Below are positions 2,945 through 20,200 of a DNA stretch of 21,512 nt, in pieces; within the stretch, counting starts at the first letter, position 1; each line of letters starts with the position of its first letter. The DNA is from a virus: positions 1 to 21,512 of IMG/VR virus record IMGVR_UViG_3300031706_001038. One strand, 5' to 3'. The notes under the pieces were generated by a model. That model did no database searches, was not told the DNA's origin, and saw only the letters and a list, made by a program, of their open reading frames with translations. Position numbers and translations under genes: made by a program.

Positions 2945-4291
2945 ATGTCAAAACCAAATATTCAAAATATTACAACTACTCAAACATTTCAAAATTGGTT
3001 TGATAAAACTAATGAGATGGTTGATCTTATGCGGGACAACGTTGTTACGGCGGCTCCAACGGGCAACGAAACAACAGGCGACGCAACTTTGGTTGGAGAC
3101 TTTACTGCAACCAACTTAGTTATTACCAACGCGATTAGTGCAGATGACATTGGAGCAAGAACTCCAGGCACTGCGGTTGGTTTTAATGGACCTATAGAAA
3201 TTACTCCAACAACAAGTCAAATTGCTGCAACCTTTACTTATGGTGCACAAGGGGCCCGCACAAGGTACACGGATGGCACCACAGCTTGGGACATAGGATT
3301 TGATAATACCACAACAGACAACTTTATTGTCAACTACGGGGTCGGAGGTCAGCTCTCGTTGTCGACGGTTGGCATCTTAACCGTTCCAAGTATTGTTACT
3401 ACTGCTGATGTTGAAATTGGTACAAATTTAACAGTACCTGGAACACTTACTGCTAATAATATCGTTGCTACAACAGTATCAGGTGCCTTCACAGGAACCC
3501 TTGTTGGTGATGTAACAGGTGACATTTATCACCCAGCAGGTAATAAGATATTCGAAAACGGAGGCCCAGCAGCTAACATTCCTGCTACTTTTACTGGTAA
3601 CGTTAATGGTACTGTTAGCTCACTAACAAATCACACCACAAACAGCCTCAGTGAAGGTACTAATAATCTATATTTCACAACCGCAAGAGCAAGAGCTTCT
3701 GTTAGTAATGGTACAGGTGTATCATATGCTACTGGTGTGTTTAGTATTGGTCAATCAGTAGGAACATCAGACAACGTAGAATTTGGCGATATAGAAGCAG
3801 ATGATATTACATGTGCAACCGTTACTGCTACTGGTACTATTGATGCAGATAAATTTACTGGTGACGGTTCAGAATTAACAGGTATTGTTCAATTAGTAAA
3901 AGCACACGTAACATTTACTCCTAGTACTGGTGCAATTTTGGCAAGTGGTGGTGGATTAACAGTAGTTAAGAATGCAACAGGAAGATGGACAGTCACTATA
4001 CCTGCTAATATTACTGGTGGCAGGCCCACCTCAGCCACTGGATATTCAATACTAGTTGGTGGTGTTTCTGACAAAACTTTCTCATTAGGGGGTTCTACTA
4101 GTGGCGTTAATAATTTGAAAGATTATAATGCTTATGTTCAAAGTCAAACTACATCAACCTTTGAGATAAGAGCAACTAGAGCAACAAACGCATATATCCA
4201 TTTTGGTGGCAACGATAACAATACAGGTTCTATATTTGGAATTACTGGGGTTGACCCTGCGACTCCTATTACCATCGCAGTGTTATATTAA
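2945..4291 (+). CDS. Short tail-fibre-like protein
   Basis: A 448-residue fibre-like structural protein. The N-terminus (TFQNWFDKTNEMVDLM) matches a start I recall from marine myovirus structural proteins and may be the attachment end. The middle is low-complexity and rich in Thr, Gly, Val and Asn. It contains TYGAQGARTRYTDGTTAWDIGF, then NLYFTTARARASV, then TSDNVEFGDI and GDGSELTGI, all familiar from phage fibre shafts. The C-terminal 130 residues or so (from about 3895) look like a separate globular beta domain and may be the receptor-binding or trimerisation tip. The start follows the upstream stop directly (TAAATG), with only a weak GAGAA at 2933-2937. The next gene looks like a fibre chaperone, which fits. 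Base composition changes inside the gene (see findings). The exact receptor role is unknown. Confidence 0.8.
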   Translation: MSKPNIQNITTTQTFQNWFDKTNEMVDLMRDNVVTAAPTGNETTGDATLVGDFTATNLVITNAISADDIGARTPGTAVGFNGPIEITPTTSQIAATFTYGAQGARTRYTDGTTAWDIGFDNTTTDNFIVNYGVGGQLSLSTVGILTVPSIVTTADVEIGTNLTVPGTLTANNIVATTVSGAFTGTLVGDVTGDIYHPAGNKIFENGGPAANIPATFTGNVNGTVSSLTNHTTNSLSEGTNNLYFTTARARASVSNGTGVSYATGVFSIGQSVGTSDNVEFGDIEADDITCATVTATGTIDADKFTGDGSELTGIVQLVKAHVTFTPSTGAILASGGGLTVVKNATGRWTVTIPANITGGRPTSATGYSILVGGVSDKTFSLGGSTSGVNNLKDYNAYVQSQTTSTFEIRATRATNAYIHFGGNDNNTGSIFGITGVDPATPITIAVLY

Positions 4292-4305: not shown

Positions 4306-4800
4306 ATGAAAACTATATTTTTTAATTATCCAGTAGGCACACCAAAAGTTTCTTTGGTCACTACTGCTAAACGTGTAAGTCAGCTTATGAGTGATGAGGT
4401 TATTCCTAAAAATGCTGGTTACGTAGAACACGATCTTATTGACGAAAATTCAAATCGTAACGATTGGGCTATGGTTGGAATGCCTGAATATTTAAAATTT
4501 GATAATGTTAAAAAGCCAACGAAAGTTTTATGGGATATGGATCTTATCGAAGTATATATCTTATCATTAATACGCAATCAACGCCAATTAGCATTCGGTG
4601 TTTTAGATACACTTGCGATGAGAGCCTTAACAAAAGGTTTATCAGACATAGTTGCAGAAATTGAAGCAGATAAACAAGCCTTAAGAGATATGCCAGATAC
4701 TGTTAATTTATCTAATGCTACTAACTATTGGACTGCATATGAAGCGGTTCCCGATGCTTTCATTGATTTTGAATCCAAGTACAAGTCTAAGCTAGCATGA
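4306..4800 (+). CDS. Probable tail-fibre assembly chaperone
   Basis: A 164-residue protein, probably a cytoplasmic factor that helps the preceding fibre protein fold or trimerise. The C-terminal half carries the pattern of phage tail assembly chaperones: RNQRQLAFGVLDTLAMRAL (residues about 90-108), an acidic helix IVAEIEADK (115-123), then LRDMPDTV (126-133) and an aromatic, Pro-containing tail. In those families a LRD(I/M)P motif near the C-terminus is common. The N-terminal half (FFNYPVGTPKV) is less distinctive. Its place directly downstream of a fibre gene is the classical position of such chaperones. It overlaps the next gene by ATGA. The family assignment is by pattern from memory; it could instead be a small structural protein. 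Confidence 0.55.
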   Translation: MKTIFFNYPVGTPKVSLVTTAKRVSQLMSDEVIPKNAGYVEHDLIDENSNRNDWAMVGMPEYLKFDNVKKPTKVLWDMDLIEVYILSLIRNQRQLAFGVLDTLAMRALTKGLSDIVAEIEADKQALRDMPDTVNLSNATNYWTAYEAVPDAFIDFESKYKSKLA

Positions 4801-5330
4801 GCATAAGGTTTGATCTTCCAGATGAAACTAAAATAGAAGCTGAAAAAATAATTGAAAAGAACTACAGAGATATGCTCTTAAATACAAAAATACAAGGAGC
4901 TAACATAATAAAAGATTGGGCTGACAAACTAACCCTAGAATATCTCAGCTCTTCAAATATTTCCGTTAGTAACGAAACTAATATGGTTAGTTTCGAAGGG
5001 TTAGGAGTTACTCAACAAATAACACAAATAATTCAAAAAGTATTTCCAAAACAAGTTGTTCGAGCTACGGGGTTTTTCCATTATCCGCCGACAGGATATA
5101 TGGGCTGGCACACAAATAGAAACGAACCTTGTAAAAGACTTTATTTAACTTGGACAAATGAAGCAAAAAAATCTTTTTTTAGATATATTAAAGATGAAAA
5201 AGTAATTACAGATTATGATGATAAAGGACTCACAAGTCGTTTATTTGAAGTAACCGGCGAAGAGCCATTCTTTTGGCATTGCGTTGGTTCAGAAATAGAT
5301 AGATTAAGTTTTGGGTTTTCTATAAAATGA
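4797..5330 (+). CDS. 2-oxoglutarate/Fe(II) oxygenase-like protein
   Basis: A 177-residue protein resembling the compact 2-oxoglutarate- and Fe(II)-dependent oxygenases of marine phages, which couple 2OG decarboxylation to hydroxylation of a substrate. The visible motifs fit a double-stranded beta-helix core. FFHYPPTGYMGWHTN supplies His105 and Asn107 in the place of the usual HxD/E pair. The FFWHCVGSEIDRLSFGF stretch supplies the distal His161 and, eight residues on, Arg169, where the 2OG-binding Arg normally sits. The Asn in the HxD position is notable but I recall GWHTN in related phage proteins, so it may be family-wide. It starts within the upstream stop (ATGA), has no clear Shine-Dalgarno site and is probably translated by coupling. 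The substrate is unknown; nucleic acid, a host protein or a virion protein are all possible. Confidence 0.65.
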   Translation: MSIRFDLPDETKIEAEKIIEKNYRDMLLNTKIQGANIIKDWADKLTLEYLSSSNISVSNETNMVSFEGLGVTQQITQIIQKVFPKQVVRATGFFHYPPTGYMGWHTNRNEPCKRLYLTWTNEAKKSFFRYIKDEKVITDYDDKGLTSRLFEVTGEEPFFWHCVGSEIDRLSFGFSIK

Positions 5331-5674
5331 TTCATGTAATGGATGGTGATTGGCAAGTATACGATGTACCTACGCATATAGATTGTAGTAAGATTTATAG
5401 TTGGGTTAAGCTGAAAAACATAGAACCAATATCCATAAATATAGATGATATAGGCCACAAAGCAACAAACAAAATAGAAACAAGAGATAGTCGATACAGA
5501 CAAGCTGATATAAATCTTCCGGGAATAGTAGTTAAAGGTATGAAAAACCCTGCAGATAAACCTTATAGAATGATAGACGGTCGACACAGATTATTAAAAG
5601 CAAAGAATAGCGGACGTAGTTATATGCAAGTTTATGTAATGATTGAGGAACAAGTGCTGAAGTTTATTAGTTAA
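5327..5674 (+). CDS. Small ParB/sulfiredoxin-fold protein
   Basis: A 115-residue protein whose C-terminal half matches the ParB N-terminal/sulfiredoxin-like fold. After LPGIVVKGM (residues about 64-72, the strand of the ParB-like PI.V motif) comes YRMIDGRHRLLKA (80-92), the equivalent of the ParB GERR-type box with DG-HR as the likely nucleotide-binding residues, followed by the strand YMQVYVMI. In this superfamily members bind CTP/ATP or DNA, or act as nucleases or phosphotransferases; none of these activities can be assigned here. No helix-turn-helix DNA-binding domain is present, so it is not a complete partition ParB. The start overlaps the oxygenase stop by ATGA, so the two are probably co-translated. 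The last gene before the intergenic gap, it looks out of place among fibre genes. Confidence 0.6.
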   Translation: MIHVMDGDWQVYDVPTHIDCSKIYSWVKLKNIEPISINIDDIGHKATNKIETRDSRYRQADINLPGIVVKGMKNPADKPYRMIDGRHRLLKAKNSGRSYMQVYVMIEEQVLKFIS

Positions 5675-5748: not shown

Positions 5749-8700
5749 ATGTCAAAGATTTCAGAATTAGGGCCGATTACAGGTGCCAATACTCGCTCTG
5801 AAGACCTTTTTGTTATCGTTAACCTTATACAAGGTGATGACGGTACTAAAAATATTACGAGAAAAGAACTTGTACAGGCTCTACAGTATGAGGTTTTTGA
5901 TAGAATAACAATCACTGGTGGGTCAATTTCCAGTGTAAGAATCTTCAACTCTACGATTGAAGATAACGTTATGAACCGGAACATATTCAATAACGGTACT
6001 ATCGATAATTCTGTTATTGAAGATTCAGATATCAACAACGGCACAATGACAGCCACCGCAGTTGCTAACGTAACTATACTAGGTTCTGATTTCTCAGATG
6101 GAACCGGTAACAACAACGTATTCACAAATACTATTGTAGACTTTGGAGCATTAAACAACTCCACTGGTAACAATGATATTTTCACAAACTCTACTATTGA
6201 TGATTCGTTCTTCAATAATGTAACTATTGATCAAGGTACTGCAAATGGCCTGATCCTTACTAATATCTCAATTGATGAACTAATTCTTGAAGATGCTCTC
6301 ATCTCGAATAGTACAATTGTTACAACAGATTTTTCCAATGGTACAATAACAGATACTGTAATCTCAGGTAATACATTCCTGTTTGATACATTCATATCTA
6401 ATTCAGAAATTACTAACACTGACTTAGATGATGTCGATATTACTAATTCAAGATTCTCAAATGGATTTATTTGGGATACACTGATTAGTAACTCAAGTAT
6501 TATTGATACAACTGCAAATAACATTGTTATTACTTCTTCTGCTCTTAATGACAGCACAGCAAATAATACTAATATTACAAATTCAGACTTCTCAAACGGT
6601 ACAGGTACTGATAACACATTTACCAATCCGATTTTAGAAAATGCCACTTTAACTGGTTCAATGGATGCTGTAGTTGCTACTAACATATCAATCGGAAGTT
6701 CTACTTCTGATAATCTAGTACAACAAAGATCAATAATTAAAAATTCTGATATTGAAGAGTCAGTAGTTGCTAATTCAAGTATCGTAGAGTCAGAACTTGT
6801 TGACTTCGATATGAATCTTACTAAAGCGTTCGAGCCAATGCTTGACGAAGACAGCTACTTTGCATTGAAAAATGTTAAGACTGGTGATACTGAGAAAATG
6901 ACTTATCGTCAATTGTACGACGAGTTCTCTAAGAAGACAGAAAAATCTCTTAAAGTACACGTTGCATCTGACGGTGATGATACATATCCAGGTACAATAC
7001 TTCAGCCAATTCGCACACTTAAACGTGCTGAAGAGCTTGCGTTACAAAAAGCTGGTGGATCTTTTGATCGTAACGATATTAATAACGCGGTACACATCTC
7101 AGTAGGTCCGGGTACTTACTATGTTGATGAACCAATTATGTTACCTGATGATTGTTCAATGACTTCAACCGCAGGTCAGTACGCTACAGTAATTCAGAAG
7201 AAAAAAGGTTGGGAGCAAACTAACGGTGTTCTAGTTGGTTCTGGTTGTTATGTTCAGGGCTTCGGTTACATGAACTTTGAAGTAGATAACTTTGATCAAC
7301 CAACAGGCGGCTTCGCTATTGCTTACCGTCCAGGTGCATTGCTAAGACGTTCACCTTACCTTCGTGACTCCACACAGCTTTCAAACTTTAACCGTTTAGA
7401 TGTTGAACCACCTTTAAATCCATTCAACTCTAAAGGTACAATTCTTGACTTAGGTAGAGAATTATATTTAGTATCAGGTCACTCTGCACAAAACCAATTC
7501 GAACTAGATGACGAAGTAACATTCTCAAGTGGTGCTACAGGATTTATTTCTTATATTGCTGATATCGATTCAAACAGACAAATCTATATAAGAAACCTGA
7601 AAGGTAATGTAGATGTTGGAGATATTCTTTACGCTCAGCGAGGCGGTACTGGTACAATTGAAAGTATCGGTATTGACGATTTCCCAAATAGATTGGTCGG
7701 CCGCGGTGGTGGTTGTCTTCTAGCAGATAGAGCAGTACTTGATACTGACTCACTATATACATACGTATTATGTTTTGGTTTCACACCTCGTACTCAAAAC
7801 GGTACAGGTTATGTTGCTAAAAACGGTGCTGGTGTTAACGGTATTGGTTCCTTGTCAATCTTTACACGTCAGGCTTTCTTTGCCCTAGACGGTGGCCAAA
7901 TGACATTGAACAACTCTGGTTCACAGTTTGGTGACATCTCAATGAGAGCACGTGGTAGTACGGTTATTATTAAACCTGCTCAAGCAACTCAAGTTGACGG
8001 TGTATCAATAAATCTAATTTCTAACTCTGCATTCGCTGATACTCTTGACGACAATCAAGGTGAAATCGTAGATGATATGATTCACTACTTGACTGCTAAT
8101 ACTACAACAGGATTCAACGGAGCACCTGGTCTTGGTTACCAAGGTTATAATGCTGATAAATGTTTCAGAGATACAGGATTAATTGTTGATTCTGCATCTT
8201 ACGACGTTGCAACAAACTCTAACTACTGGGGTCGCTTAAACGGTATCACATATCGTTCGCCAATCTCTTACATTGTTGTTAACGATCAAATGACTGAGAC
8301 TGTTGGTTCAATCAATCATATTAAAGGTGAAATCGAACACATCTTTACTAACGAGCAAACAGGCGAAGTACTAACACGTTTAGACAGATCTCTTGATCAA
8401 ACACTAAATATTCTTCAAAATGGTGAAGATGCAGCCGATCCTATTATCTTTGCTAATACTGGTGATACAGATGCTGTTGCATCTAGAGAACTTGTTCAAG
8501 ATAACAGAGCATTAATCATAAACGAATTCGTAGATTGGATCGACAACAACGATGAATTCTATGCTTACGACGGTGTTAAGTGTGAAAGAGACGTAAAAGA
8601 ATATATCTTACCAGCAACCAAATTTGATATGATGCTGGATACAAACTACAATGCAGTTACTACTGGTTTAGCATATTATGTTAATACTGCCAGAACATCT

Positions 8701-11700
8701 CTTGAAAATCAAAGAAATGAAACAGTAGCAGCATTTGAAAGATTACGTAAAACAACTGATGAACTTATTCAAGCTAACTCTGCGCCTGCAGCAGTTGATG
8801 CTTATAAGTCATTCAATACAATTATCGGTGCTCTTGCTAACTCAGGTACAAAGTTTACTCCAACAAAAACAACTTATGATCCAGTTACTGGTCGTATGGT
8901 TATAACAATTGGTACTCACGACTTAACAGTTGGTAGATATGTAAATCTTGCAAAAGAAAGCTTCACATTCACATGCTCAAGCGATAACTTCAAGACTGAG
9001 ATCAGTCACCCAAGAGCGTCTGAAAAAGCTTATCTAGCTGCGTTGCCAATCATTGAAACATCAGCAAAAACAATTACTGTTAACCCAGGATTAACTGCTG
9101 CTAACTTTGAGCATAGATTTGTAAGTGCTAAAGATGATGCAGTATCAGTTATTGGTGAAGCAATTACTTTCTCTGATAATAGTGGCATCCCAGTTGCTAA
9201 GCGTAATGCTCGTAAGCAACTACAAGTCAACAGAGAGTTCGTACAAGATTATATGGCTGATTGGGTAGACAATGAATTCTACTTCTATGACAGCAAGAAA
9301 TGCCACAGAGATACAGAAGAGTATATCTTACCTGCAGTTCAAAGAGATGTATTGCTTGGAACAAACTATAACGCAATCCAAACTGGTGCAGCTTATCGTA
9401 CTAAGTCTGGTGAGGTAAGTGTTACTGATCAATTAGCTCAAACAGTTGGTTCAATTAACTATCTTAAAACACAAACAGCAGCTTTAGTAAGTAACTCAAT
9501 TGCTGGAAATAGAGCTAACGAATCATTCGACGAAATGTCAAGATTGCTCAACAACAATGGCAAGAAGTATACTCCTACAAATGCAGTATATAGTCCAACT
9601 TCAGGTACAACAGTACTTACGATTGGTACTCACGATTTTGCTATAGGTGATAGTGTATTCATTGAGCCAAATAGTTTAACATTCACATGTGCACTTGACG
9701 GTAATTCAACTGAGCATTCTTATCCAACAACTGAATTTATTAACTATACTCCTACAACTGCGTCATATGATCCAGCCACTGGTGAGTTTAGTGTAAATAT
9801 CGGATCAAATGCTCTTAAAGCTGGTGATTTTGTAGAGTTCAAGCCAAACTCAATTGTATTTACTTGTGCAATGGATGATAATGTAACTAATCACCCAGCA
9901 CCTGAATCACATCACCCATTCTATAAGAAACAAATCGTTATCGACAGAGTTGACGGTTTCACTATTCATATGAATGTTGGTAGTGTTGTAAACGGTGGTG
10001 GACTTCATACCTTTGTATCAGCAGCAACAAATGCTATACAAGCAGAAAAAAGACATCCTGCTTATAAGAAACCTGTTAAGATTTCTGATAGAGATGCAAC
10101 AACAATTACACTAAACGTTGGTGAGTCAAGTGACACATCAGTCCATACTTTTGTATCAGCAACATCTAATGCGATTCGCGAAGGTGACATGTGGACAGGT
10201 ACATTCACTCCACAAACTGCTACATACGATCCAGTATCAGGCGACATGGTTCTTACAATCGGTTCACATGATTTACCAGTAGGTAAGTGGATTGAAATTG
10301 CTCCTGAATCAATGGTATTTAGTTGTGATGTTGGTGGTGTAACAGGAACAGATGCTGCTCCATTATACGACCACCCAGCTTATAAAGAGCCAGTAAGAGT
10401 TAAAGCAATTACTACAGACACAATTACAGTTAATGTAGGTAATGCAAATGGCCACGCTAATAACCATACTTTCGTAAGTGCAGATGCAGATTGTATCGAT
10501 GCTAACGCATTATACTTCTCAGATCCTGCTAAAGTATTAAAAGCTTATACTCCAACAACTGCAACATACGATCCAGTAACTGGTGAATTTGTAGTTACTC
10601 TTCCATCACATGATCTTACTACTGACGATCATATCGAATTGCAGCCACAAAGCTTTGTATTTAGTTGTGCTGCAAATGGTGGAGGTAATGACTTCTCACC
10701 ACGTATTGGAGACTTTGCATATAAGTTACCATTAGCAATTAGTGCAGTAACAACAAATACAGTAACAATTAATGTTGGATCTGCCGGTACAAACACAGAC
10801 GTACATACATTTGTAAGTGCTGACGAAGGTGCAGTCATTAAGGTTGCAGGTTCTCAACAAGGTGTATACGCATCTAGAATCTTGCAGAAGAACAAAGCAT
10901 ATCTACAAGCTGAAGTCGATGCATATATGAATGATAACTACTTCATCTATGACAAAGATAAGTGTATGCGGGATACAGGTTATATCTTAAATGCTGTAGC
11001 CAGAGACGTTGCAACTGATTCAAATGTCAACTCGATATATGTTGGTAAAGGTTATAGAATTGGTACGGTCGGTGCAAACAACGTAGTTAACAACCAGCTT
11101 ACTCAAACAGTCGGTGCAATTACTTGGTTAAAAGGTAAAATTGCAACTGAAGTATTATCTAACGCTAATCAAATCGCAATATCAAATGCTGCATTCGATG
11201 AAATTATCGACATTATGACAAACGGAAATGCTGCTGCTAATGATGTTAACTTTGGTGGAGCTTCATTATCAGATGATTCATTCAACGGTGCTCATGCATT
11301 AAGAGTTAACAAAGCATTCATACAAAAAGAAGTTATTGCTTGGATTACTGCTAATCATCCTGGATTTGTATATAGTCAAGTTGCTTGTGAAAGAGACTTA
11401 GGTATCTTTGTAGATACAGCTTCTTGGGATTTACAACACGGTGGCAACGCTGCTACGGTAAATAATTCAAGACTTTACTTTGAAAATGCTTTACCAGTAT
11501 TAAGTGATGGTGAAATTGTTCCAACGTCAGGCGCATATGAGTTTGTTTCTTACTTAGTAGGACAAATTGTAAGAGGCGAAACAGTTACTCCTTTACAAGG
11601 TGTTGTAAATCAAATATTAACTGAAGAAGAATCATTTAGCCCAACAAATGCTACTTACGATCCAGTAACTGGTATTATGGAATTAACAATTGGTGTACAT

Positions 11701-14700
11701 ACTTTCGAAGTTAACGATCGTATTACTATCGACCCTAACGCTATTACATTCCAGTGTGGATTTGGTGGTGGTGGTACTGATTCTCACCCAAATACAAACG
11801 ATCCTAACCTTGGCAAACCATTCATTATTACAGCAAAAACTGCTCAAACTATTACAGTAAATGCTGGCTCAGCCGGAACTAATACTGACGTACACAGTTT
11901 TGTTAGTGCTATAACCGATAGTGTTAGAGCTGCTAGTATGGCAGATGCTTATACTCCAACCGACATTGCATATAATCATACATCTGGTGTTATGACAATG
12001 ACATTAGGTGATAGACACAGATTTGCTAAAGGCGATTATGTAATCTTTGATGAAAACTCAATTACATTTAGTTGCGCAAGTAATGGTGGAGGCAATTTAG
12101 CTCACCCACGTCCATCCGATCCAATCTTTAACAAGCCAGTTAGAATTGATTCGGTTACAGGAACAACAGTTACATTACAAGTTGGTCCTGCTAAGGTCGA
12201 TGCAGTACATACATTTGTAAGTGCTACAACAAACGGTGTAAGAAGATCATTAGATGTAGATACTTCTACTAGAGCTGTAAACTTATTCGCTCAAATTGGT
12301 GAGACCATCGAACAAAATGATGGTACAGTTCCAACAGTTATAGAAACACCTGCCCTAGTAGCAGCAGAAGCGATCATAGGTCAGAAACCTAAGTATCAAA
12401 CTGAAATCATCGATTACATCTACGAAACATATGCAGGTCACGGTTATGAAACTGCTAAATGTGCAAGGGATGTTGGATATATTGTTGACGCAATCTCAGA
12501 AGATCTAGAGTATGGTGGCGATAGTGCTACAATACACTCTGCGAGATATTACTTTGAAGGTGCAGTAAATACTTTACCATATTATCAAAGAGAACCATCA
12601 AAATTGGCATTCACACATATCGCTAATGTTATGGAAAAAGTTGTTAAGAACGAAGTACAAGAGCCACACTTTGGTGCACAGTTTACACCAACTAATGCTA
12701 CTTACAATCCAGTAACTGGTATTATGGTTGCTACTATTGGCACTCACACTCTTACAACTGCTGATCACGTTTGGTTTAAACCAGACGCAATTACATTCTC
12801 TTGTGATAATGGTTCCGGCCCTGCAAACCATGCAAGCCCTGAAGCACATCATCGCTTCTATAACAAAGCATGTCCAATTATTGGTGCTGATGCAACAACG
12901 ATTACAATGTGGGTAGGTAATGCTGGGGTATACACAGGAGCACATACATTCGTAAGTGCGATAACTAACGCTATTAGCGAAGTTACAGGTAACCTTGTTA
13001 AGCAAAATGTTAAACTAGCAGCAGCCGATACAGCAACCGCACTTGAAGCTAAGACTCTTGCACTGGTTATTGCTAATATCGTAGATGATAGATTGGTTGT
13101 CCCAGATTATAGTGGATCACTTGATATATCACTTGGTCAGCAAACACCTTATCCATTACCAATTGCAAATGCTGCAACAGCTCCTCTTATGGAACCAAGC
13201 AGAACATTCGCAAGAAAGTCATTACAATGGAACAGAGAGTTTATTCAAGAAGAAGTTGTTAGATTTGTTCGAAATAATAATTATACTTACGATGAAGCAA
13301 AATGTGCTAGAGACGTAGGATTTATCATTGATGCAGTTGCAAGAGATGTTCAGACTGGTTCTGATTATCCTTCACAGTATTACGGTAGAGCTTATCGTGT
13401 AGGTACAGCACTTGCACAAAATGTGATCGAGTCTCAGTTAGCAGAAACAGTTGAAGCTATCGAATATGTAAGAGATGATATTTTACCAAGACTTGCTGGT
13501 GTAGCATTAACAAGAGCAACAGCGGCATTTACTAATGTAATCAATATCATGAAAAACGGTACTGCCGGAATTACTTACGATTATGGATTTGGTAATGTAG
13601 GTGCTTCAGACAATGCTGCAACAGACGGCTTAACTCTTAACATACCATTTATTCAACAAGAAGCAATTTCTTGGATTGCAGTTAATAATGCAAGCTTAGT
13701 ATATAATGAAGCAAAATGTAGAAGAGATACAGGACTGTTAATTGAAGCTGCAGCTTATGATATTAGACATGGTTCTAATGTTGCAATGAGAGATTTTGCT
13801 AAGCTTTACTTTGAAAACGGTATTAACGTTGGATTACCTGAAGCACAAAGAGCACCAACTGCTGCTCTATATAATCACTTAGCATCAGTAGCAGAGACAG
13901 TTGTTCTTAAACAAACAGTAACTCCTACTACTGGAAACTCAGTTGCTCAGGTAACTGCTGGATTCGGTAACGTTGTTGGAGCCTCAGGTATTGAAGTTGA
14001 ATTACTGATTAAGATCGTAGCAGATATTATTGCTGAAGATTCATTAATTAATCTACCACAAGTTAGAGAAGCAGCAGTAACCGATGCAGCTGCAACTGGT
14101 TATGATCAAGAAGAGTCAGTTGCTCTTATCCTTGGACGTAAGGATACACTTGGTGGAGCGGTTGTTCAATACTTAAGCGATAACTTTGCATTCCTACAAT
14201 ACTCTGAAGAGAGATGCCGTAGAGATACAGGTTATATTGTAGATGCTATATCACACGATATTCAATATGGTGGTAACTCTGCAATGCACGGTACTGCAGA
14301 ACTTTACTTTAAGAATGCAATAAATATCTTGCCAATCGACCAACGTAAAGCAACAAGAGAAGCCTTCGAATATATGGCTAAAGTTGTTCAACATGTTGTA
14401 CGTAACGAATATATCCCACGTGATCTTGGAAATCAATTTAGCCCAACTGGTGCTACATATAATCCTGATACTGGAATCTTTACTGCAACACTAGGCGCAG
14501 GACATAAGCTTAAAGCCGGTGATCATGTAATGATTGCTCCTGAAAGTATTGTATTCACATGTAGCTTAGACGGTGACCTTGCTGAACATCCATCACCACA
14601 ACTAGGTGATCCATACTATAATGCACCATATCCAATTACTGCAACCGATGCTACTACAATCACTATGCAAGTTGGTAAGGTTGCTTACGGTAAAGGTGGC

Positions 14701-16818
14701 GGAGCCCATACATTCGTAAGAGCATCATTAAATGCAATTACTCAAGTTATCGGCAACCCAATAAAGCAAGAAATGCCAACTATAGCAGCCAGAAGAACAA
14801 TTGGTACTGAAGTTATGAACCTTGCATTAATGCTAAGTAAAGTTGCAGATGATAACAACCCAGCAGCAATACCTGCAAGAGTTGATCCATTCGTAAACTG
14901 GATTGATGCAGATATTCTTGCTGCTAAGAACGCTATTGATAATGGCACAGTTCAAATGGCAACTGATCTACAAACATACATTTACGATACCTATAACGGT
15001 ATTAGTTACTCTAAAGAGAAATGTCGTAGAGATGTTGGTACAATCATTGATGCATTATCACACGATGTTAACTACTCAACAAATTACGCTATGGTTCAAA
15101 CTGCAGGTCTTTACTTTGTAAATGCTGTATCAGTATTACCGGTTGATCAAAGACAACAAACTGCTAGGTTCTTCACTGAATTAGCAGACACGGTAGAAAA
15201 GATCGTAATTGGTGGAACAATCGATACTGCAGTATTAAGTCACAGTTCTACAACACAAGATACTACAACTTACACAGCAGCAACCGCGGTTGAAGCCGAA
15301 GAAGTAGCAGATCTTACAAGAATCGTTGAAGATGCAGTACGCAGAGATAGCATAGACGTTATCCCAGCAATTACTGATCCTAACACTTCTTGGGTTGACG
15401 CTTCTAAGATATGGGCAGCAGCAGAGATTGATGATAATCTTGACGAATTGGCAGATGATGTAACTCAATTCTTGAAAGATACATTTACTATTGTTGATTA
15501 CAGCAAAGCGAAATGTCGTAGAGATGCAGGATATATTCTAGACGCTATGAGCTGGGATCTTAACTACGGTGGTAACCTTGCTACTAGATGGAATGCAGCC
15601 TTCTACTTCTGGAATAACGAATTAAGAGTTCCTGAAGATACAAGAGCAGCAACTGCTCAAGCATATCGTCAACTTGGTAGAATCGTATCACAGGTTGTTA
15701 GAGGTACTTATCCTGGTCAGGTTATTAGATCAGAACTTGGTACTGAAGTACAGTCTACGCAGGCAACTGATCTAGGCTTAATCTTCTATAACGCACTATT
15801 CTATAATACTGTTAACAAGCTTGGACCAACTATTAATCCAAACTTTGCTTGGGAAACTAATAAAACTTTCAACTTTGCTAAGGATATTCTTGATAGCAAT
15901 AAGAGTAGAATACAACGTGAAGTACAAAGATTTATTACTGCAGAATACAAGTTTATTGATCTACCTAAAACATATCGTGATGCTGGTAACTTTATTAAAA
16001 TTATCGGTAACGACTTTAGATATACTGATCCATCGCTTAATCCTAGCAACATATATAATAATGCGCAAGGCGGAGCAGGTGCAGATGCAGCTTCAAGATC
16101 CTTCGTTGGTGCATTGTTTAATATTGACGCTCAGCACGTATTCCCAGTGTTTAATCCACCGGCAGCATTTGCTGATTGGCGTAAGCTAAGATTTAAAGGT
16201 ACTGTTGTTGATGCAGCAGCACGTGATCTACTTACAGCAGTTCCGGCGACAAGCACAGTTAAGAGATGGGATTGTTATATTATCCCAACTGATAATAATG
16301 TAAATCGTTATGTAGGAGAAATATTCTACTGGACTGGTACAACTTGGGCAGCAGCTGGAACAAATAACACTGAGTTGTTAGCAGCCTTCACTGGTGCTTG
16401 GACACAGATGAAAACTTATATAAATAACAATATTGCTCCAGACACACCACACAGAACAATGGTAACAGAATTGATTGATAACGTAATTATAGATAGTATT
16501 ATACGACCTGACTTCTTAGTCTTTGGATCGTTGGTTGAATCTATTGCTCACCAGTTTAACGGTGCATCGGCAGGTGTTAACAGAAACGCCTTACCGCTGA
16601 ACTTCAGAAACGTGGGTGCTGCTATCGGTGCTAATGCTTCGGTATTATCAGAAAATGGTGGTAGAATCAGATGGTCTGGATCAGATGAATTAAATAACCA
16701 GTACTTCGCGCGAGGTCTTAAGATTAATGGTAGAACAGGTCGTATCGAAGGTAGACCGTTTACATCATCAGTACGAAAACTCGCAAGAAGAGCTTCTAAC
16801 TCAAGGGCAGCACTATAA
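5749..16818 (+). CDS. Giant modular fibre-like virion protein (3,689 residues)
   Basis: A giant structural protein, roughly 400 kDa, probably a long tail fibre or adhesin-like appendage. Parts in order: conserved N-terminus (1-55; EDLFVIVNLIQGDDGTKNITRKEL) likely for virion attachment; Asn/Ser/Thr-rich stepwise repeats (about 58-357) resembling a pentapeptide-like beta helix; a pectate-lyase-type right-handed beta helix from about 402 (VASDGDDTYPG, then HISVGPGTYYVDEPI) to about 755; a long region (about 800-3435) of two interleaved repeat families (A, Cys-containing helical; B, beta); and a C-terminal domain with FGSLVESIAHQFN (from 3592) and RIRWSGSDELNNQYF. No signal peptide, membrane segment, protease or lyase catalytic residues are evident. 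It is read from its own late promoter and ends in a TAATG overlap with the next gene. Similar giant proteins occur in marine T4-like phages; their role has, as far as I know, not been shown. Confidence 0.9.
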   Translation: MSKISELGPITGANTRSEDLFVIVNLIQGDDGTKNITRKELVQALQYEVFDRITITGGSISSVRIFNSTIEDNVMNRNIFNNGTIDNSVIEDSDINNGTMTATAVANVTILGSDFSDGTGNNNVFTNTIVDFGALNNSTGNNDIFTNSTIDDSFFNNVTIDQGTANGLILTNISIDELILEDALISNSTIVTTDFSNGTITDTVISGNTFLFDTFISNSEITNTDLDDVDITNSRFSNGFIWDTLISNSSIIDTTANNIVITSSALNDSTANNTNITNSDFSNGTGTDNTFTNPILENATLTGSMDAVVATNISIGSSTSDNLVQQRSIIKNSDIEESVVANSSIVESELVDFDMNLTKAFEPMLDEDSYFALKNVKTGDTEKMTYRQLYDEFSKKTEKSLKVHVASDGDDTYPGTILQPIRTLKRAEELALQKAGGSFDRNDINNAVHISVGPGTYYVDEPIMLPDDCSMTSTAGQYATVIQKKKGWEQTNGVLVGSGCYVQGFGYMNFEVDNFDQPTGGFAIAYRPGALLRRSPYLRDSTQLSNFNRLDVEPPLNPFNSKGTILDLGRELYLVSGHSAQNQFELDDEVTFSSGATGFISYIADIDSNRQIYIRNLKGNVDVGDILYAQRGGTGTIESIGIDDFPNRLVGRGGGCLLADRAVLDTDSLYTYVLCFGFTPRTQNGTGYVAKNGAGVNGIGSLSIFTRQAFFALDGGQMTLNNSGSQFGDISMRARGSTVIIKPAQATQVDGVSINLISNSAFADTLDDNQGEIVDDMIHYLTANTTTGFNGAPGLGYQGYNADKCFRDTGLIVDSASYDVATNSNYWGRLNGITYRSPISYIVVNDQMTETVGSINHIKGEIEHIFTNEQTGEVLTRLDRSLDQTLNILQNGEDAADPIIFANTGDTDAVASRELVQDNRALIINEFVDWIDNNDEFYAYDGVKCERDVKEYILPATKFDMMLDTNYNAVTTGLAYYVNTARTSLENQRNETVAAFERLRKTTDELIQANSAPAAVDAYKSFNTIIGALANSGTKFTPTKTTYDPVTGRMVITIGTHDLTVGRYVNLAKESFTFTCSSDNFKTEISHPRASEKAYLAALPIIETSAKTITVNPGLTAANFEHRFVSAKDDAVSVIGEAITFSDNSGIPVAKRNARKQLQVNREFVQDYMADWVDNEFYFYDSKKCHRDTEEYILPAVQRDVLLGTNYNAIQTGAAYRTKSGEVSVTDQLAQTVGSINYLKTQTAALVSNSIAGNRANESFDEMSRLLNNNGKKYTPTNAVYSPTSGTTVLTIGTHDFAIGDSVFIEPNSLTFTCALDGNSTEHSYPTTEFINYTPTTASYDPATGEFSVNIGSNALKAGDFVEFKPNSIVFTCAMDDNVTNHPAPESHHPFYKKQIVIDRVDGFTIHMNVGSVVNGGGLHTFVSAATNAIQAEKRHPAYKKPVKISDRDATTITLNVGESSDTSVHTFVSATSNAIREGDMWTGTFTPQTATYDPVSGDMVLTIGSHDLPVGKWIEIAPESMVFSCDVGGVTGTDAAPLYDHPAYKEPVRVKAITTDTITVNVGNANGHANNHTFVSADADCIDANALYFSDPAKVLKAYTPTTATYDPVTGEFVVTLPSHDLTTDDHIELQPQSFVFSCAANGGGNDFSPRIGDFAYKLPLAISAVTTNTVTINVGSAGTNTDVHTFVSADEGAVIKVAGSQQGVYASRILQKNKAYLQAEVDAYMNDNYFIYDKDKCMRDTGYILNAVARDVATDSNVNSIYVGKGYRIGTVGANNVVNNQLTQTVGAITWLKGKIATEVLSNANQIAISNAAFDEIIDIMTNGNAAANDVNFGGASLSDDSFNGAHALRVNKAFIQKEVIAWITANHPGFVYSQVACERDLGIFVDTASWDLQHGGNAATVNNSRLYFENALPVLSDGEIVPTSGAYEFVSYLVGQIVRGETVTPLQGVVNQILTEEESFSPTNATYDPVTGIMELTIGVHTFEVNDRITIDPNAITFQCGFGGGGTDSHPNTNDPNLGKPFIITAKTAQTITVNAGSAGTNTDVHSFVSAITDSVRAASMADAYTPTDIAYNHTSGVMTMTLGDRHRFAKGDYVIFDENSITFSCASNGGGNLAHPRPSDPIFNKPVRIDSVTGTTVTLQVGPAKVDAVHTFVSATTNGVRRSLDVDTSTRAVNLFAQIGETIEQNDGTVPTVIETPALVAAEAIIGQKPKYQTEIIDYIYETYAGHGYETAKCARDVGYIVDAISEDLEYGGDSATIHSARYYFEGAVNTLPYYQREPSKLAFTHIANVMEKVVKNEVQEPHFGAQFTPTNATYNPVTGIMVATIGTHTLTTADHVWFKPDAITFSCDNGSGPANHASPEAHHRFYNKACPIIGADATTITMWVGNAGVYTGAHTFVSAITNAISEVTGNLVKQNVKLAAADTATALEAKTLALVIANIVDDRLVVPDYSGSLDISLGQQTPYPLPIANAATAPLMEPSRTFARKSLQWNREFIQEEVVRFVRNNNYTYDEAKCARDVGFIIDAVARDVQTGSDYPSQYYGRAYRVGTALAQNVIESQLAETVEAIEYVRDDILPRLAGVALTRATAAFTNVINIMKNGTAGITYDYGFGNVGASDNAATDGLTLNIPFIQQEAISWIAVNNASLVYNEAKCRRDTGLLIEAAAYDIRHGSNVAMRDFAKLYFENGINVGLPEAQRAPTAALYNHLASVAETVVLKQTVTPTTGNSVAQVTAGFGNVVGASGIEVELLIKIVADIIAEDSLINLPQVREAAVTDAAATGYDQEESVALILGRKDTLGGAVVQYLSDNFAFLQYSEERCRRDTGYIVDAISHDIQYGGNSAMHGTAELYFKNAINILPIDQRKATREAFEYMAKVVQHVVRNEYIPRDLGNQFSPTGATYNPDTGIFTATLGAGHKLKAGDHVMIAPESIVFTCSLDGDLAEHPSPQLGDPYYNAPYPITATDATTITMQVGKVAYGKGGGAHTFVRASLNAITQVIGNPIKQEMPTIAARRTIGTEVMNLALMLSKVADDNNPAAIPARVDPFVNWIDADILAAKNAIDNGTVQMATDLQTYIYDTYNGISYSKEKCRRDVGTIIDALSHDVNYSTNYAMVQTAGLYFVNAVSVLPVDQRQQTARFFTELADTVEKIVIGGTIDTAVLSHSSTTQDTTTYTAATAVEAEEVADLTRIVEDAVRRDSIDVIPAITDPNTSWVDASKIWAAAEIDDNLDELADDVTQFLKDTFTIVDYSKAKCRRDAGYILDAMSWDLNYGGNLATRWNAAFYFWNNELRVPEDTRAATAQAYRQLGRIVSQVVRGTYPGQVIRSELGTEVQSTQATDLGLIFYNALFYNTVNKLGPTINPNFAWETNKTFNFAKDILDSNKSRIQREVQRFITAEYKFIDLPKTYRDAGNFIKIIGNDFRYTDPSLNPSNIYNNAQGGAGADAASRSFVGALFNIDAQHVFPVFNPPAAFADWRKLRFKGTVVDAAARDLLTAVPATSTVKRWDCYIIPTDNNVNRYVGEIFYWTGTTWAAAGTNNTELLAAFTGAWTQMKTYINNNIAPDTPHRTMVTELIDNVIIDSIIRPDFLVFGSLVESIAHQFNGASAGVNRNALPLNFRNVGAAIGANASVLSENGGRIRWSGSDELNNQYFARGLKINGRTGRIEGRPFTSSVRKLARRASNSRAAL
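5920..6820 (+). repeat. Asn/Ser-rich stepwise repeats (predicted beta helix) in the giant protein
   Basis: The encoded stretch (residues about 58-357) cycles through phrases such as IFNSTIED, FNNGTIDNSVIED, FSNGTITDTVISG and ITNSDFSNGTG. An alternation of one hydrophobic residue with small polar residues and Asn turns is what pentapeptide-like or narrow beta-helix rungs look like. The copies are diverged at DNA level, so this is an old protein repeat rather than a recent tandem duplication. Confidence 0.7.
6952..8010 (+). other. Pectate-lyase-like right-handed beta-helix domain in the giant protein
   Basis: From residue about 402 the protein reads VHVASDGDDTYPGTILQPIRTLKRAEELA, then HISVGPGTYYVDEPIMLPDDC. 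This is the usual entry to parallel beta-helix domains of the pectate-lyase/DUF1565 type (a Gly-Asp-rich cap, a PxRTLKxA helix, then PGTY). Gly-rich strand phrases continue to about residue 755. In tail fibres such domains can bind or cut glycans, but I see no obvious catalytic cluster, so a structural role is equally likely. Confidence 0.6.
8146..16050 (+). repeat. Repeat family A: Cys-containing helical repeat, 11 clear copies plus 1 degenerate
   Basis: A motif of about 40 residues, consensus Y...KC.RD.G.I.DA...D...G.N, recurs with starts at 8146, 8566, 9286, 10948, 11371, 12445, 13288, 13702, 14200, 15007 and 15499. The Cys and the RD pair are present in all 11. A twelfth, degenerate copy near 15949-16050 keeps YRDAG but has Thr (codon at 15970) where the Cys should be. 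Most copies are preceded by a helix such as NREFIQEEVVRFV. Two subtypes can be told apart by what follows: one ends in G.AYR and then QL.QTVG.I..LK (8146, 9286, 10948, 13288; 8566 is a looser member); the other has YGGN.A...A.LYF and then a VV..VVR.E helix (11371, 12445, 13702, 14200, 15007, 15499). Confidence 0.85.
8851..14742 (+). repeat. Repeat family B: about 98-residue beta repeat, nine copies
   Basis: A unit of about 98 residues, consensus F(T/S)PT.ATYDPVTG.M..TIG.H, then (T/S)F(T/S)C, then HP, then TIT.NVG and HTFVSA, recurs at 8851-9144, 9565-9738 (truncated), 9742-10038, 10201-10497, 10543-10836, 11632-11928, 11947-12243, 12679-12978 and 14434-14742. An extra half unit lies at 10054-10176. 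The Cys of the F.C motif is present in all nine. The His of HTFVSA is present in every copy that reaches that point. The pattern suggests an immunoglobulin-like or other small beta domain. It is familiar from marine phage fibres, but I know of no assigned function. Confidence 0.85.
16419..16426 (+). promoter_or_regulatory. Possible internal late promoter
   Basis: A second exact TATAAATA sits inside the giant gene, about 390 bases before the start of the 140-residue gene. It encodes part of TYINNN, so its codons could arise by chance in an AT-rich gene. If active it would give extra late transcript for the two downstream genes. Confidence 0.3.
16803..16807 (+). promoter_or_regulatory. Ribosome binding site of the 140-residue gene
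   Basis: AAGGG within the last codons of the giant gene lies 10 bases before the ATG at 16818. This start overlaps the giant gene's stop by one base (TAATG). Confidence 0.6.
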
Positions 16819-17240
16819 TGGCAATTATTACAATAAAAACATCACAGGCACCTGACGCCAAACCAGTCGCTAAAACATTTATGTTAACGACTAACTGGCT
16901 GCCTATGATTGAAGTACCAAACTATGAGGTCCCAGAGCTAGTCTTTGGGGGTTCAACAACAGTAGAGCCAGGAGTTGGCGAGGTAATTTCTCCTCTTATT
17001 TTATGTAATATTACTGCAAACACGGTTATGTGTGATGTAGAAGTACATAGAGAAGAGACTAACGATGAGTTCTATCTTATTAAGAACTTACAACTCCCAG
17101 CTTATGACACAATTCCATTGCCACTTAACGGGCAATTCTTTAAATCAGGCGATTTGTTAAATCTTAAGTGTTCAGTTGATGACGCAGTACATGCAACATT
17201 ATCATTCACACTAGGACAAGCCGAAGAGGATGACGTATAA
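16818..17240 (+). CDS. Small conserved virion protein of unknown function
   Basis: A 140-residue protein that I connect with small structural proteins found beside fibre genes in marine T4-like phages. After a short N-terminal arm (IITIKTSQAPDAKPVAKTF) come NWLPMIEVPNYEVPE, a Gly/Val-rich GEVISPLILCNITANTVMCDVEVHR stretch and LPLNGQFFKSGDLLNLKCSVDDAVHATLSF. Alternating hydrophobic residues, no charged clusters until the end and no helical signature suggest a single beta sandwich. This could be a fibre-capping or connector domain. It ends in an acidic GQAEEDDV tail whose codons also carry the Shine-Dalgarno site of the next gene. One-base TAATG overlaps on both sides tie it to the giant fibre and to the collagen-like fibre, so it probably works with one of them. 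No enzymatic motif is visible. Confidence 0.75.
   Translation: MAIITIKTSQAPDAKPVAKTFMLTTNWLPMIEVPNYEVPELVFGGSTTVEPGVGEVISPLILCNITANTVMCDVEVHREETNDEFYLIKNLQLPAYDTIPLPLNGQFFKSGDLLNLKCSVDDAVHATLSFTLGQAEEDDV
17223..17230 (+). promoter_or_regulatory. Ribosome binding site of the collagen-like gene
   Basis: GAAGAGGA, inside the acidic tail codons of the preceding gene, lies 9 bases before the ATG at 17240 and selects that start. Confidence 0.65.
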
Positions 17241-20200
17241 TGGCATTTAGATCAATCAGCGGAAGCAAAATTGTTGGGCAAGGCAGACCGCAAGCCGTAC
17301 CAATACAGTTGGATCCGGTACCGTACGAAGGTGCGGTTGCATACGGAGCTGACGGCTTAGTTTATGTTTCAAACGGTACCGCTTGGAACGCGGTTGGTCA
17401 AGGGATACAAGGAACAGAAGGATTACAAGGTGACGGCGGAATTCAAGGTCTGCAAGGCACATACGGTCCTGGTTTTGATGTTATTGGGTCAGTTGCAGAT
17501 GTTGATGCAGGTGGAGATCCACAAGCAACATTAAATACTGCTTTCGCATCAGCTACTGTAGGTCAAGCAGTTATAGATGAAGCTGATGACGAGCTTTGGG
17601 TTTATGATGGAACAACGTGGGTTAATGTTGGTTCATTCCGAGGCGTACAAGGTTTTACAGGTTTACAAGGTGACACTGGTGCACAGGGCGAAAGAGGTCC
17701 AGATGGTATTCAGGGTTCACGTGGTTATCGTGGTTTCCAAGGTTTCCAAGGAACACAGGGTACTACAGGTATTCAAGGCTTGCAAGGCGTACAAGGGATG
17801 CAAGGGACACAAGGACCACAAGGAGTGCAAGGTGTCCAAGGTATCCAAGGCGACTTTGGTATCCAAGGTACTCAAGGACCACAGTCAATCCAAGGTATGC
17901 AAGGCATTCAAGGCATTCAAGGTGATACAGGTTTCCAAGGATTTAGTGGAGATGATGCTGGTCACGTAGTAGAATATAGAATAGACGATGGTATTGTAGA
18001 AGCCGATCCGGGCACAGGCGATATGATCATGAACGGTGCTGCTAATCCAACCGATAATTTCAGCGCAGTTACAAAAATATGGATTGACGATGAAGCTTTC
18101 TATAGTGTAAACTTAGAAGGTTTATTTACTGCCATAGCAGCAGTTGGTACTACAAATAAAGGTATTATGAAAGTTACTCTTCGTAATAACCCGTCAAATT
18201 ATATGATCTTCCAGATCCAAGGAGCAACCGATAGAACCGGTTATTGGGAATTAGATGTTACTTTCTTATCAGGCGATGGTATTAAGAGTGATTTTGTTCA
18301 ATTAAATACCCCAAGTGCTGGTATTACTCAACAGCTTCCAACTCTAGTTGCATTCAGTTTAGCTGGTGATCAAGGTATTCAAGGAACTCAAGGGATACAG
18401 GGTCCACAAGGAACTCAAGGTGTTCAAGGCTTACAGGGTGTTCAAGGCATTCAAGGTGCTCAAGCTGCACAAGGTATTCAAGGCGATACCGGCATTCAAG
18501 GTATGCAAGGAACTCAAGGCCATCAAGGTATTCAAGGCGATCAAGGTTTCCAAGGTGCACAAGGTACTCAAGGACATCAGGGTACGCAAGGTGCCCAAGG
18601 GATGCAAGGAACTCAAGGCCATCAGGGAACACAGGGTTTCCAAGGCTTTCAGGGTTTACAAGGCGACGTTGGTACACAAGGATTCCAAGGTACTCAAGGA
18701 CATCAGGGAACACAAGGCATTCAAGGTGCAGTAGGTCACTACGGTGGTTTAACTCACGAGTGGAACTTTGTAAGTAATATTACAGCATCTACTGATCCAG
18801 GCACAAGCGGCTGGAAACTTAATACTAACAATATTGCAACTGCTACAATCTTAACGCTTGATGATGTTCCATTAGATAACTATACTAATGATATCGATGA
18901 AACGTTTGATTGGTTAGCTGCAATTCCTGGCGCTAATAAAGGTCTTATCGTAATAGAAAGTTTCGATGATGGCACTGGTCCTTCAGGACACCATCAGGTT
19001 GTATACGAATTCTCAAACTTTACTTGGGATGGTAGTGGTAAAACTTTTGGTTGGTTTGATGTTGTATACGTCGGTTCATACGGCGTAACAAGCACAAGTT
19101 GGGCTACTGATGTAATCGGTGGCGGACACGGTCCTAAAACTCTTATTAACTTTGTTCCCCGCGGCGCTGCTGGTATCCAAGGTATAACCGGTTCGCAAGG
19201 TGTTCAAGGTTTCTTAGGATTCCAGGGTACTCAAGGAGCGCAAGGTGTTCAGGGTATTCAAGGATTCCAAGGTACTCAAGGAGCGCAGGGTATTGCTGGT
19301 GCATATGGTGGAGCGTCATTCGAATATGACTATACTCCAGATGTTACACCTACAGGTCCTGCAAGTGGATTAATTAAATTTAACAATGCTGACGTTACAT
19401 TAGCTTCAATCATGCGTATATCTGATACCGAAACTAACGGTTCAAATATTGACGCTTATCTAAGAAGTTTAGATGATGGTGGTTCTGCAGTTAAAGGTTA
19501 CATTAAAATTGTATCAATCTCAGATCCAGCAGAATTCTTATTATATAGCTTAACTGGTTTAACAGAAAATGCCGCATATTACAATTTTAATATTACATAT
19601 CTAACAAAATCTACTAATGCTGACGCTACGTATTTTACAAACAACACTGATATTATCTTTACTTTTACAAGAGCTGGTGATATTGGTTTACAAGGTATTC
19701 AAGGTTTACAAGGTGTTCAGGGTACACAATCAATTCAAGGTTTACAAGGTGAAACTGGAGCTGGTACTCAAGGTGTTCAAGGTTTATTTGGTATTCAAGG
19801 TGACTTAGGCATTCAAGGTTTCCCAGGTCCGATTGGCCCGCAGGGTGTTCAAGGATTTTATGGTTTACAAGGTACAGGTGGTTTACAAGGTGGTACTGGT
19901 GGATTTGGTGGTGTAACATTTGATTATACTTATTCTACTGATACTGCAGCAACTGACCCAACACCTGGCTATTTAAAATTCAATAATGGTACAATGGGCT
20001 CAGTATCCAAAATGTTCATCGATGATAGAGATGATAACTTTGTAGATATTCAGCCGTTCCTTAGAACAGTTGATGATTCAACAAGCCCTATCAAGGGACA
20101 CTTTAAAGTATCAGAAAAAACTAATCCAGAAAACTTTTTGATCTTTACTATATCTGCGTTATCTGAAGTGTCTGGTTACTTTGATATTGATTCGGCTTTT

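Follow-up and report, generated by a model that had tools for sequence, protein, structure and literature searches.

Catalysis by a 2OG oxygenase that lacks the acidic iron ligand has been described for AspH, and FIH keeps partial activity when its Asp is changed to Gly (accessible portions of PMC10947486 and PMC13168262); with Ala or Glu at that position, FIH activity is lost (PMC10947486, same portion). The site of AspH reads HxG and contains water (PMC10947486, PMC13168262, as far as accessible). Its Arg688, nine residues past the first His, contacts the C1-carboxylate of 2OG, and Arg735 and Ser668, the latter within an RXS motif, contact the C5-carboxylate (accessible portion of PMC8179049). 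The 2OG halogenases, with HxA or HxG, are likewise devoid of the acid (PMC10947486, same portion). In phages, the 2OG oxygenases of PF13640 and PHROG 61 keep HxD or HxE. Other 2OG genes of cyanophages have been found near repair genes, and a role in repair was proposed for them (accessible portion of PMC2984593). The literature searched, which covered few subscription journals, yielded no paper recognisable as describing a 2OG enzyme with an HxN site (the HxN papers found deal with kinases) or as reporting the hydroxylation of phage tail fibres.

Here we describe a viral gene whose product looks like an Asn variant of this known kind of enzyme. It is located in the window, i.e., the whole 21,512-nt (ca. 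21.5 kb) stretch of the virus record IMGVR_UViG_3300031706_001038, and is referred to below as the core gene, with c3 and c2 as its upstream and downstream neighbours (Table 1). Like AspH, its family has no acidic ligand and retains both His and the 2OG-binding Arg, and the +9 spacing between His679 and Arg688 of AspH equals that between His105 and Arg114 of the core protein. In contrast, the two-His HxG site of AspH and the HxA or HxG of the halogenases are absent from the core family, in which HxN is invariant. Neither AspH nor the halogenases appeared among the fold-search matches listed, which excludes nothing. Asparagine can bind iron, as in lipoxygenases. By analogy with AspH and FIH, an acid-free site would be compatible with catalysis, Asn itself lying outside the data on those two enzymes. 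Nothing in our data points to a repair role for the HxN family.

Table 1. Features of the window discussed in the text
Feature	Position	Strand	Remarks
Gene upstream of c3, read as fibre	2945..4291	+	448 aa; no Pfam or PHROG match
C-terminal tip-like domain of the 2945-4291 gene	3893..4288	+	ca. residues 317-448; conserved in c3-bearing loci
c3, fibre-chaperone-like gene	4306..4800	+	164 aa; ATGA overlap with core gene
Core gene	4797..5330	+	177 aa; ATG start; predicted 2OG-oxygenase fold with HxN
W104-H105-T106-N107, putative HxN metal-site motif	5106..5117	+	codons 104, 105, 107 (His105 = CAC, 5109-5111; Asn107 = AAT, 5115-5117); between predicted strands 88-96 and 112-120
Arg114 (His105 + 9)	5136..5138	+	codon checked; Arg in 44/49 representatives
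His161, distal His	5277..5279	+	codon CAT; on predicted strand 161-165
R169-L-S171 (RxS), candidate 2OG C5-carboxylate site	5301..5309	+	last predicted strand; Arg169 = AGA, 5301-5303
c2, ParB/sulfiredoxin-fold gene (predicted)	5327..5674	+	115 aa; ATGA overlap with core gene; motif DG[RK]HR in most
Collagen-like ORF, open-ended	17240-21512		1,424 aa in window

The HxN site and the predicted fold

The genes run, 5' to 3', from the fibre-like gene through c3 and the core gene to c2, and the core gene has 4-nt ATGA overlaps on both sides (4797-4800 with c3 and 5327-5330 with c2). A first-pass annotation of this DNA had marked the same ORF as similar to 2OG oxygenases, with His105, Asn107, His161 and Arg169 as the putative site and Asn in place of the usual Asp or Glu. 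By codon check, the ORF and the four residues are exact, so that this observation is confirmed; the codons of Trp104, Arg114 and Ser171 were likewise confirmed.

The AlphaFold2 model of the core protein, made with a 45-sequence alignment (pLDDT 91.2, pTM 0.87), contains the double-stranded beta-helix of 2OG oxygenases, a feature whose absence the first-pass annotation had said would count against its reading. Foldseek against the PDB gave 94 matches at E<=0.001, led by P. putida P4H and PHD2, with moderate query-normalised TM-scores of 0.39 to 0.56 among the matches listed. The best VIA match was a Trichoplax prolyl hydroxylase (Z 11.8, rmsd 3.2, 147 residues aligned), and PHD2, P. putida P4H and PiuC scored close to it; viral models labelled as 2OG oxygenases were also among the structural matches. 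In the model, strands 88-96 and 112-120 flank HxN, and strands 161-165 and 169-176 carry His161 and Arg169, respectively. This succession of the HxN position, a distal His and a C-terminal Arg is usual for the 2OG oxygenase fold. P4H, PHD2/EGLN1, Tpa1/OGFOD1, vCPH and PiuC thus resemble the core protein in the double-stranded beta-helix and in site order. The P4H/PHD2-type enzymes have Asp where the core family has Asn, and identity in the structural alignments listed is 7-12%. The oxygenase-like fold of the core protein is supported by this predicted model.

At the sequence level, neither Pfam, PHROGs nor NCBIfam recognises the core protein. At E<=1 no Pfam 2OG model matched it or eight divergent relatives, nor, among the families listed (25 of 30), any of 47 members; no NCBIfam 2OG model matched, and a search of PDB sequences with the family profile gave nothing at E<=5. 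The sole hint was a match of one of eight members scanned, that of Phage C48C1 (L083), to PHROG 61 (E 0.0048). Canonical 2OG oxygenases, with HxD or HxE, are present in the fetched stretches of several relatives (L022, L039, L042, L047, L049, L052 and L081), and the three canonical enzymes scanned from such stretches all match PF13640. Comparison of the family profile with seven canonical phage P4H/PiuC-type sequences gave scores of 18.3-24.6 in four runs, which is not significant, given that 50 shuffles of the canonical profile scoring 18.4 reached 24.07. With 62 canonical phage sequences the probability was below 1% in all six runs, and a run with its own 60 shuffles scored 15.6, with 24.4 the highest score among the shuffles. 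HxN was aligned over HxD/E in four of four alignments with the smaller set and in one of six (over HxD) with the larger. Since neither comparison was significant, we dropped the profile-profile link as support.

Of the features that define the superfamily, the distal His and the C-terminal Arg are present on predicted strands (83/83 aligned sequences), and the acidic ligand of HxD/E (HxN in 227/227 ORFs) and a match to a curated sequence model are not. AspH and the halogenases also lack the acid, and our claim is therefore one of a fold and most of a site, rather than of a canonical member. Assignment to the Fe(II)/2OG superfamily relies on the predicted fold and the order of the site residues.

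Conservation and distribution of the family

Relatives were first collected with six patterns, one of which (GYMGWHTN) contains HTN. For this reason, we added scans that were blind to HTN, one using a C-terminal alignment without this motif and a separate one starting from the neighbour gene c2. The relatives taken were the best 80 of 137 (first scan), the best 80 of 165 (C-terminal scan) and the best 80 of 192 (c2 scan). HxN was found in 136 of 137 proteins (135 HTN and one HSN), the exception (L159) being a protein cut off by the contig end. A profile search at E <1e-10 recovered 233 ORFs, of which 227 contain the region, all of them with HxN (214 called via the pattern and 13 by reading the rows); the other six are one cut-off contig end and five matches to the chaperone alone. 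With HxN in every ORF that contains the region, Asn is fixed throughout the sampled family.

Across 83 aligned sequences, which comprise the protein of the window plus 80 viral loci and two phage records, His105, Asn107, His161 and Arg169 are each invariant and Ser171 is kept in 82. The same four residues are invariant in the 49 representatives left after removal of sequences with >=90% identity, together with Tyr96, Pro97, Gly100, Gly103, Trp104, Phe128, Tyr130, Gly144 and Trp160. Two short sequences (L046 and L076) were left out of alignment A1, and A2 was additionally made without L082 and L083. The conservation of HTN, which the first-pass annotation had proposed to check, is thus borne out, as is its description of a site that, apart from the Asn, follows the 2OG triad. 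Judged by conservation across these relatives, the four-residue fit is not due to chance. The dN/dS of the core gene against seven relatives is 0.10-0.18, with identical values for L003 and L161. It should be noted that related contigs are not independent and that loci repeat; there are 116 distinct cores once those that miss either half of the site are excluded.

Two records of the phage collection match the window protein, that of Phage C48C1 being the only annotated one; its HxN gene (L083:9671-10345) adjoins a NifU-like gene for iron-sulphur assembly. Eight loci came from the genome collection, two on contigs binned with a Rhodobacteraceae assembly and six in other bacterial assemblies. 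L161 and L162 (91% and 77% identical) carry the full module, including the fibre domain, c3 and c2, and are therefore probably phage. According to the neighbours read, the Phage C48C1 gene and the six bacterial-assembly members lie outside fibre operons. L163 and L164 are next to PglD/hexapeptide acyltransferases, with genes that we read as glycosyltransferase- and aminotransferase-like close by, and in a Thiobacillus assembly (L166:7137-8339) a GNAT acetyltransferase domain is fused ahead of the HxN domain; an ORF read as ATP-grasp-like converges on this gene from the opposite strand. When genomes were sampled, 1/293 and 1/294 matched, each being the starting genome, so cellular copies seem to be rare.

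Fibre, chaperone and c2 neighbours

Against Pfam, the c3 protein of the window gave nothing at E<=1, and its relative in L008 reached the phage tail assembly chaperone model PF16778 with E 0.001 (19.3 bits vs a cut-off of 26.6). The c3 of the window matches PHROG 20196, of function not known (E 5.5e-5), as does one of 47 members of the oxygenase family (E 0.0044). PF16778 itself is matched by two of the 47 members scanned; in L041, residues 253-310 correspond to this domain (E 1.5e-15) and are fused to the HxN domain, and the C-terminal part of the protein matches proteins in 48 phage records; the names in the 40 of these that were listed include tail assembly chaperone, tail fibre protein and hypothetical protein. 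The hhalign comparison of c3 with the fused chaperone domain was weak (E 5e-4, probability 31%).

Neighbour clustering revealed that the order fibre-like gene, c3, HxN gene and c2 is kept in viruses that otherwise differ in their neighbours. Among the 116 distinct cores, 39 have c3 and a same-strand c2, 18 have the chaperone fused, and six have c3 without c2; a carbamoyltransferase is found in six, an adjacent chaperone with an opposite-strand c2 in six, an opposite c2 alone in five, an adjacent chaperone alone in three, a same-strand c2 alone in two, and none of the partners tested in 31. The carbamoyltransferase, of NodU/CmcH type, adjoins the HxN gene in L044, L048, L052, L054, L061 and L136, with domains PF02543/PF16861 in L052. 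Considering distinct cores with >=600 nt upstream, a chaperone domain (c3 or APC) is adjacent or fused in 68/109. Of 63 distinct proteins, 50 have a gene of the cluster that we read as fibre-like no more than three genes away, and 13 have none at this distance. Judging by contig names, the 14 contigs found via the c3 of the window were all also found via the HxN family gene. The link of the HxN family to fibres is supported by the chaperone fusion and gene order, and the fibre-chaperone-like neighbour noted in the first-pass annotation is borne out by the adjacency of c3 as well as by these fusions. That annotation had missed the third gene of the module (c2, with its predicted ParB/Srx fold), the chaperone fusions, and the blindness of the curated libraries to the family.

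The gene upstream of c3 is called a fibre on the basis of its position and shared C-terminal domain, because it matches neither Pfam nor PHROGs. This domain, of ca. 130 residues, is conserved in 22 distinct sequences. Taking cores with >=1.5 kb upstream, it was found in 40/41 of the c3-type vs 2/61 of the others, the 40/41 being partly by construction, since 22 fibres located upstream of c3 had gone into the profile. Once the loci used to build the profile were excluded, the domain remained in 24/25 c3-type cores, in 23 of them just upstream; the other cores gave 0/61 with the first-round profile and 2/61 with the iterated one. By tblastn, the fibre domain had no match in the phage collection. 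Pseudomonas phage Paride (L244) has both the fibre C-terminal domain (E 3e-13, two ORFs) and a c3 relative (E 2.6e-33): in L244:5452-7498, a 511-aa gene annotated as "hypothetical" follows a "tail protein" gene and precedes the c3 relative. The HxN family and c2 profiles found nothing at E<=1 in the 14.5-kb Paride stretch, and ten other Pseudomonas phage records carry a c3 relative. Domain and c3 thus form a fibre-chaperone pair, in which the domain tracks the chaperone and to which oxygenase and c2 have been added. We therefore rejected both a general bond of c3 to the oxygenase and the fibre C-terminal domain as a proven substrate, as the two occur in Paride without the oxygenase. In their fetched stretches the fused-chaperone lineages do not have this domain, so the enzyme is not restricted to a single type of fibre. 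What the pair indicates is the likeliest target protein and neither a residue nor a domain within it.

Farther downstream, a 3,689-aa ORF (5749-16818) contains many segments that recur by eye; its first 1,000 residues match only PHROG 15350 (E 3e-4), plus Pfam models under the cut-off. In the Gxy tracts of the collagen-like protein, Gln occupies the Y position in 140/221 triplets, and there are 15 prolines. The first-pass annotation had taken this collagen-like fibre as the obvious target, with the caveat that its few prolines spoke against simple prolyl hydroxylation. The caveat was right, and prolyl hydroxylation of the collagen-like protein was rejected as the lead idea given the 15 prolines and the lack of specific co-travel; the module goes instead with the fibre upstream of c3. 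On the whole, the fold, the conservation of HTN and the fibre-chaperone neighbour proposed at that stage have held, the obvious role given to the collagen-like fibre has not, and the broader suggestion of a nearby virion protein as the target is supported as an inference.

The predicted model of c2 (pLDDT 96.4) adopts a ParB/sulfiredoxin-type fold, with sulfiredoxin (Z 7.1), ParB (6.7), SerK, a kinase of free serine (6.4), and SbnI as leading matches; with Z values of 7.1 at most and a best Foldseek E of 1.9e-3, this match is only moderate. All the matches listed with Z >=5 were of ParB type (Noc, KorB and PadC included), Srx, SerK or SbnI, except 1vk1, a hypothetical protein. A survey of the ParB-CTPase fold from 2025 describes short single-domain phage forms, the binding of ATP, GTP or CTP, the serine kinases SerK and SbnI, and a phage fusion of the fold to DUF1983, which is often C-terminal in receptor-binding proteins (accessible portion of PMC12704722); the word "oxygenase" is absent from its main text. 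In fold, c2 resembles these phage proteins as well as sulfiredoxin, SerK and SbnI. Pfam had no match for the c2 of the window or of L078, and the two PHROGs matched (35149 and 17560) are both without known function. The residues fully conserved across 22 c2 sequences are Arg56, Tyr57, Tyr80, Asp84, Gly85, Arg88, Lys91 and Tyr103.

This gene is adjacent in 35 of the 84 viral cores that were not found via c2, i.e., about two fifths. Conversely, 68 of 80 c2 loci (best 80 of 192) have an HxN gene, oriented either the same way or tail to tail, a proportion that leans to the lineage of the window because the relatives closest to it were taken first. The gaps between both genes range from a 19-nt overlap to 9 nt apart, and in a Cellvibrionaceae assembly (L165) a single protein joins the HxN and c2 domains, its C-terminal part matching the same PHROG as c2. 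The idea of c2 as an obligate partner was rejected, considering the 35/84 cores and the 12/80 c2 loci without an HxN gene. Eight of the ten such loci that were read lie in a different kind of region. Distant c2 relatives without an HxN gene are found beside a gene read as ThyX-like (L231, L234-L236 and L240-L243), and a gene read as PhoH-like is also beside them in L235, L236 and L240-L243. In L218:5845-6309, a stretch that we read as fibre-like is in frame before a c2 domain, with a gene read as chaperone-like nearby and no HxN gene.

Possible roles of the HxN family

The best explanation, which we hold tentatively and at a little under even odds (roughly 0.46), is that of an Fe/2OG enzyme directed at the fibre, whose HxN site is unusual and whose action is perhaps followed by phosphoryl transfer. 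Observed are the gene, its predicted fold, the invariant site, the fusion to the chaperone and the synteny; iron, 2OG turnover, the substrate and the order of steps are all what we infer. Fe(II) would most likely be bound by His105 and His161, with Asn107 serving either as a weak third ligand or to hold an iron-bound water, given that AspH works with two histidines only. 2OG would be bound by Arg169 and Ser171, perhaps with Arg114 too. The enzyme would act in tail-fibre assembly, made beside or fused with the fibre chaperone, and its target would be a residue of the fibre of that chaperone, here the product of the 2945-4291 gene, possibly in its C-terminal domain. The ParB/Srx-fold c2 would belong to the same pathway in about two fifths of distinct viral cores, possibly phosphorylating the new hydroxyl, and the carbamoyltransferase might act on the product in some lineages, this last step being the least certain. 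The fully specified version, a two-step modification in which a 2-His-1-Asn oxygenase hydroxylates the chaperone-held fibre and c2 phosphorylates the hydroxyl (with the carbamoyltransferase as a decorator elsewhere), is quite unlikely to be right in all its parts.

The absence of an acidic iron ligand from all 227 region-holding ORFs, the fusion to chaperone domains and the lack of a sequence link to active families would also suit a dead enzyme retained as a scaffold, the fold of which attaches to chaperone or fibre chain and aids trimerisation without any oxidation. Dead oxygenases usually lose the His and Arg residues of the site freely, whereas here His105, His161 and Arg169 are invariant in 83/83 sequences and Ser171 is kept in 82/83; the bacterial-assembly members beside sugar- or metabolite-type genes (names that are partly our reading) also suit a scaffold poorly. 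We regard this explanation as doubtful, although it deserves serious consideration. Alternatively, the protein might modify a small molecule or glycan, the product of which then becomes linked to the fibre or is recognised by it. The PglD/hexapeptide acyltransferases of L163 and L164, the genes read as glycosyltransferase- or aminotransferase-like, the GNAT fusion of L166 and the NodU/CmcH-type carbamoyltransferase beside six viral cores all favour such a role, together with the proximity in fold of c2 to SerK and SbnI, which are serine kinases (accessible portion of PMC12704722). However, the tight partners in viruses are fibre chaperones rather than sugar pathways, and fusion to a chaperone speaks for a polypeptide; we consider the small-molecule or glycan role unlikely.

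Fibre regions are prone to recombination, and the HxN gene could be a moron, i.e., cargo whose place in the fibre region merely reflects a common insertion site and which acts on the host. The c2 relatives found away from fibres in cyanophages and the Paride fibre-chaperone pair without an HxN gene are compatible with this, but the fixed order, with gaps that go from a 19-nt overlap to 9 nt, and the fusion to the chaperone in 18 cores speak against mere cargo, and we find it very improbable. A fibre-directed enzyme thus remains our preferred reading, and the gene arrangement and predicted models suggest that some phages may subject their own fibres to chemical modification. If active, the HxN proteins would be a natural family of 2OG oxygenases with an invariant Asn where the acidic iron ligand is expected, and would be evidence that phages alter the chemistry of their adhesion fibres using enzymes that are tied to the chaperone of the fibre. 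Motif searches for HxD/E overlook such families. For phage oxygenases of unknown substrate, the neighbouring fibre would provide a first substrate that can be tested.
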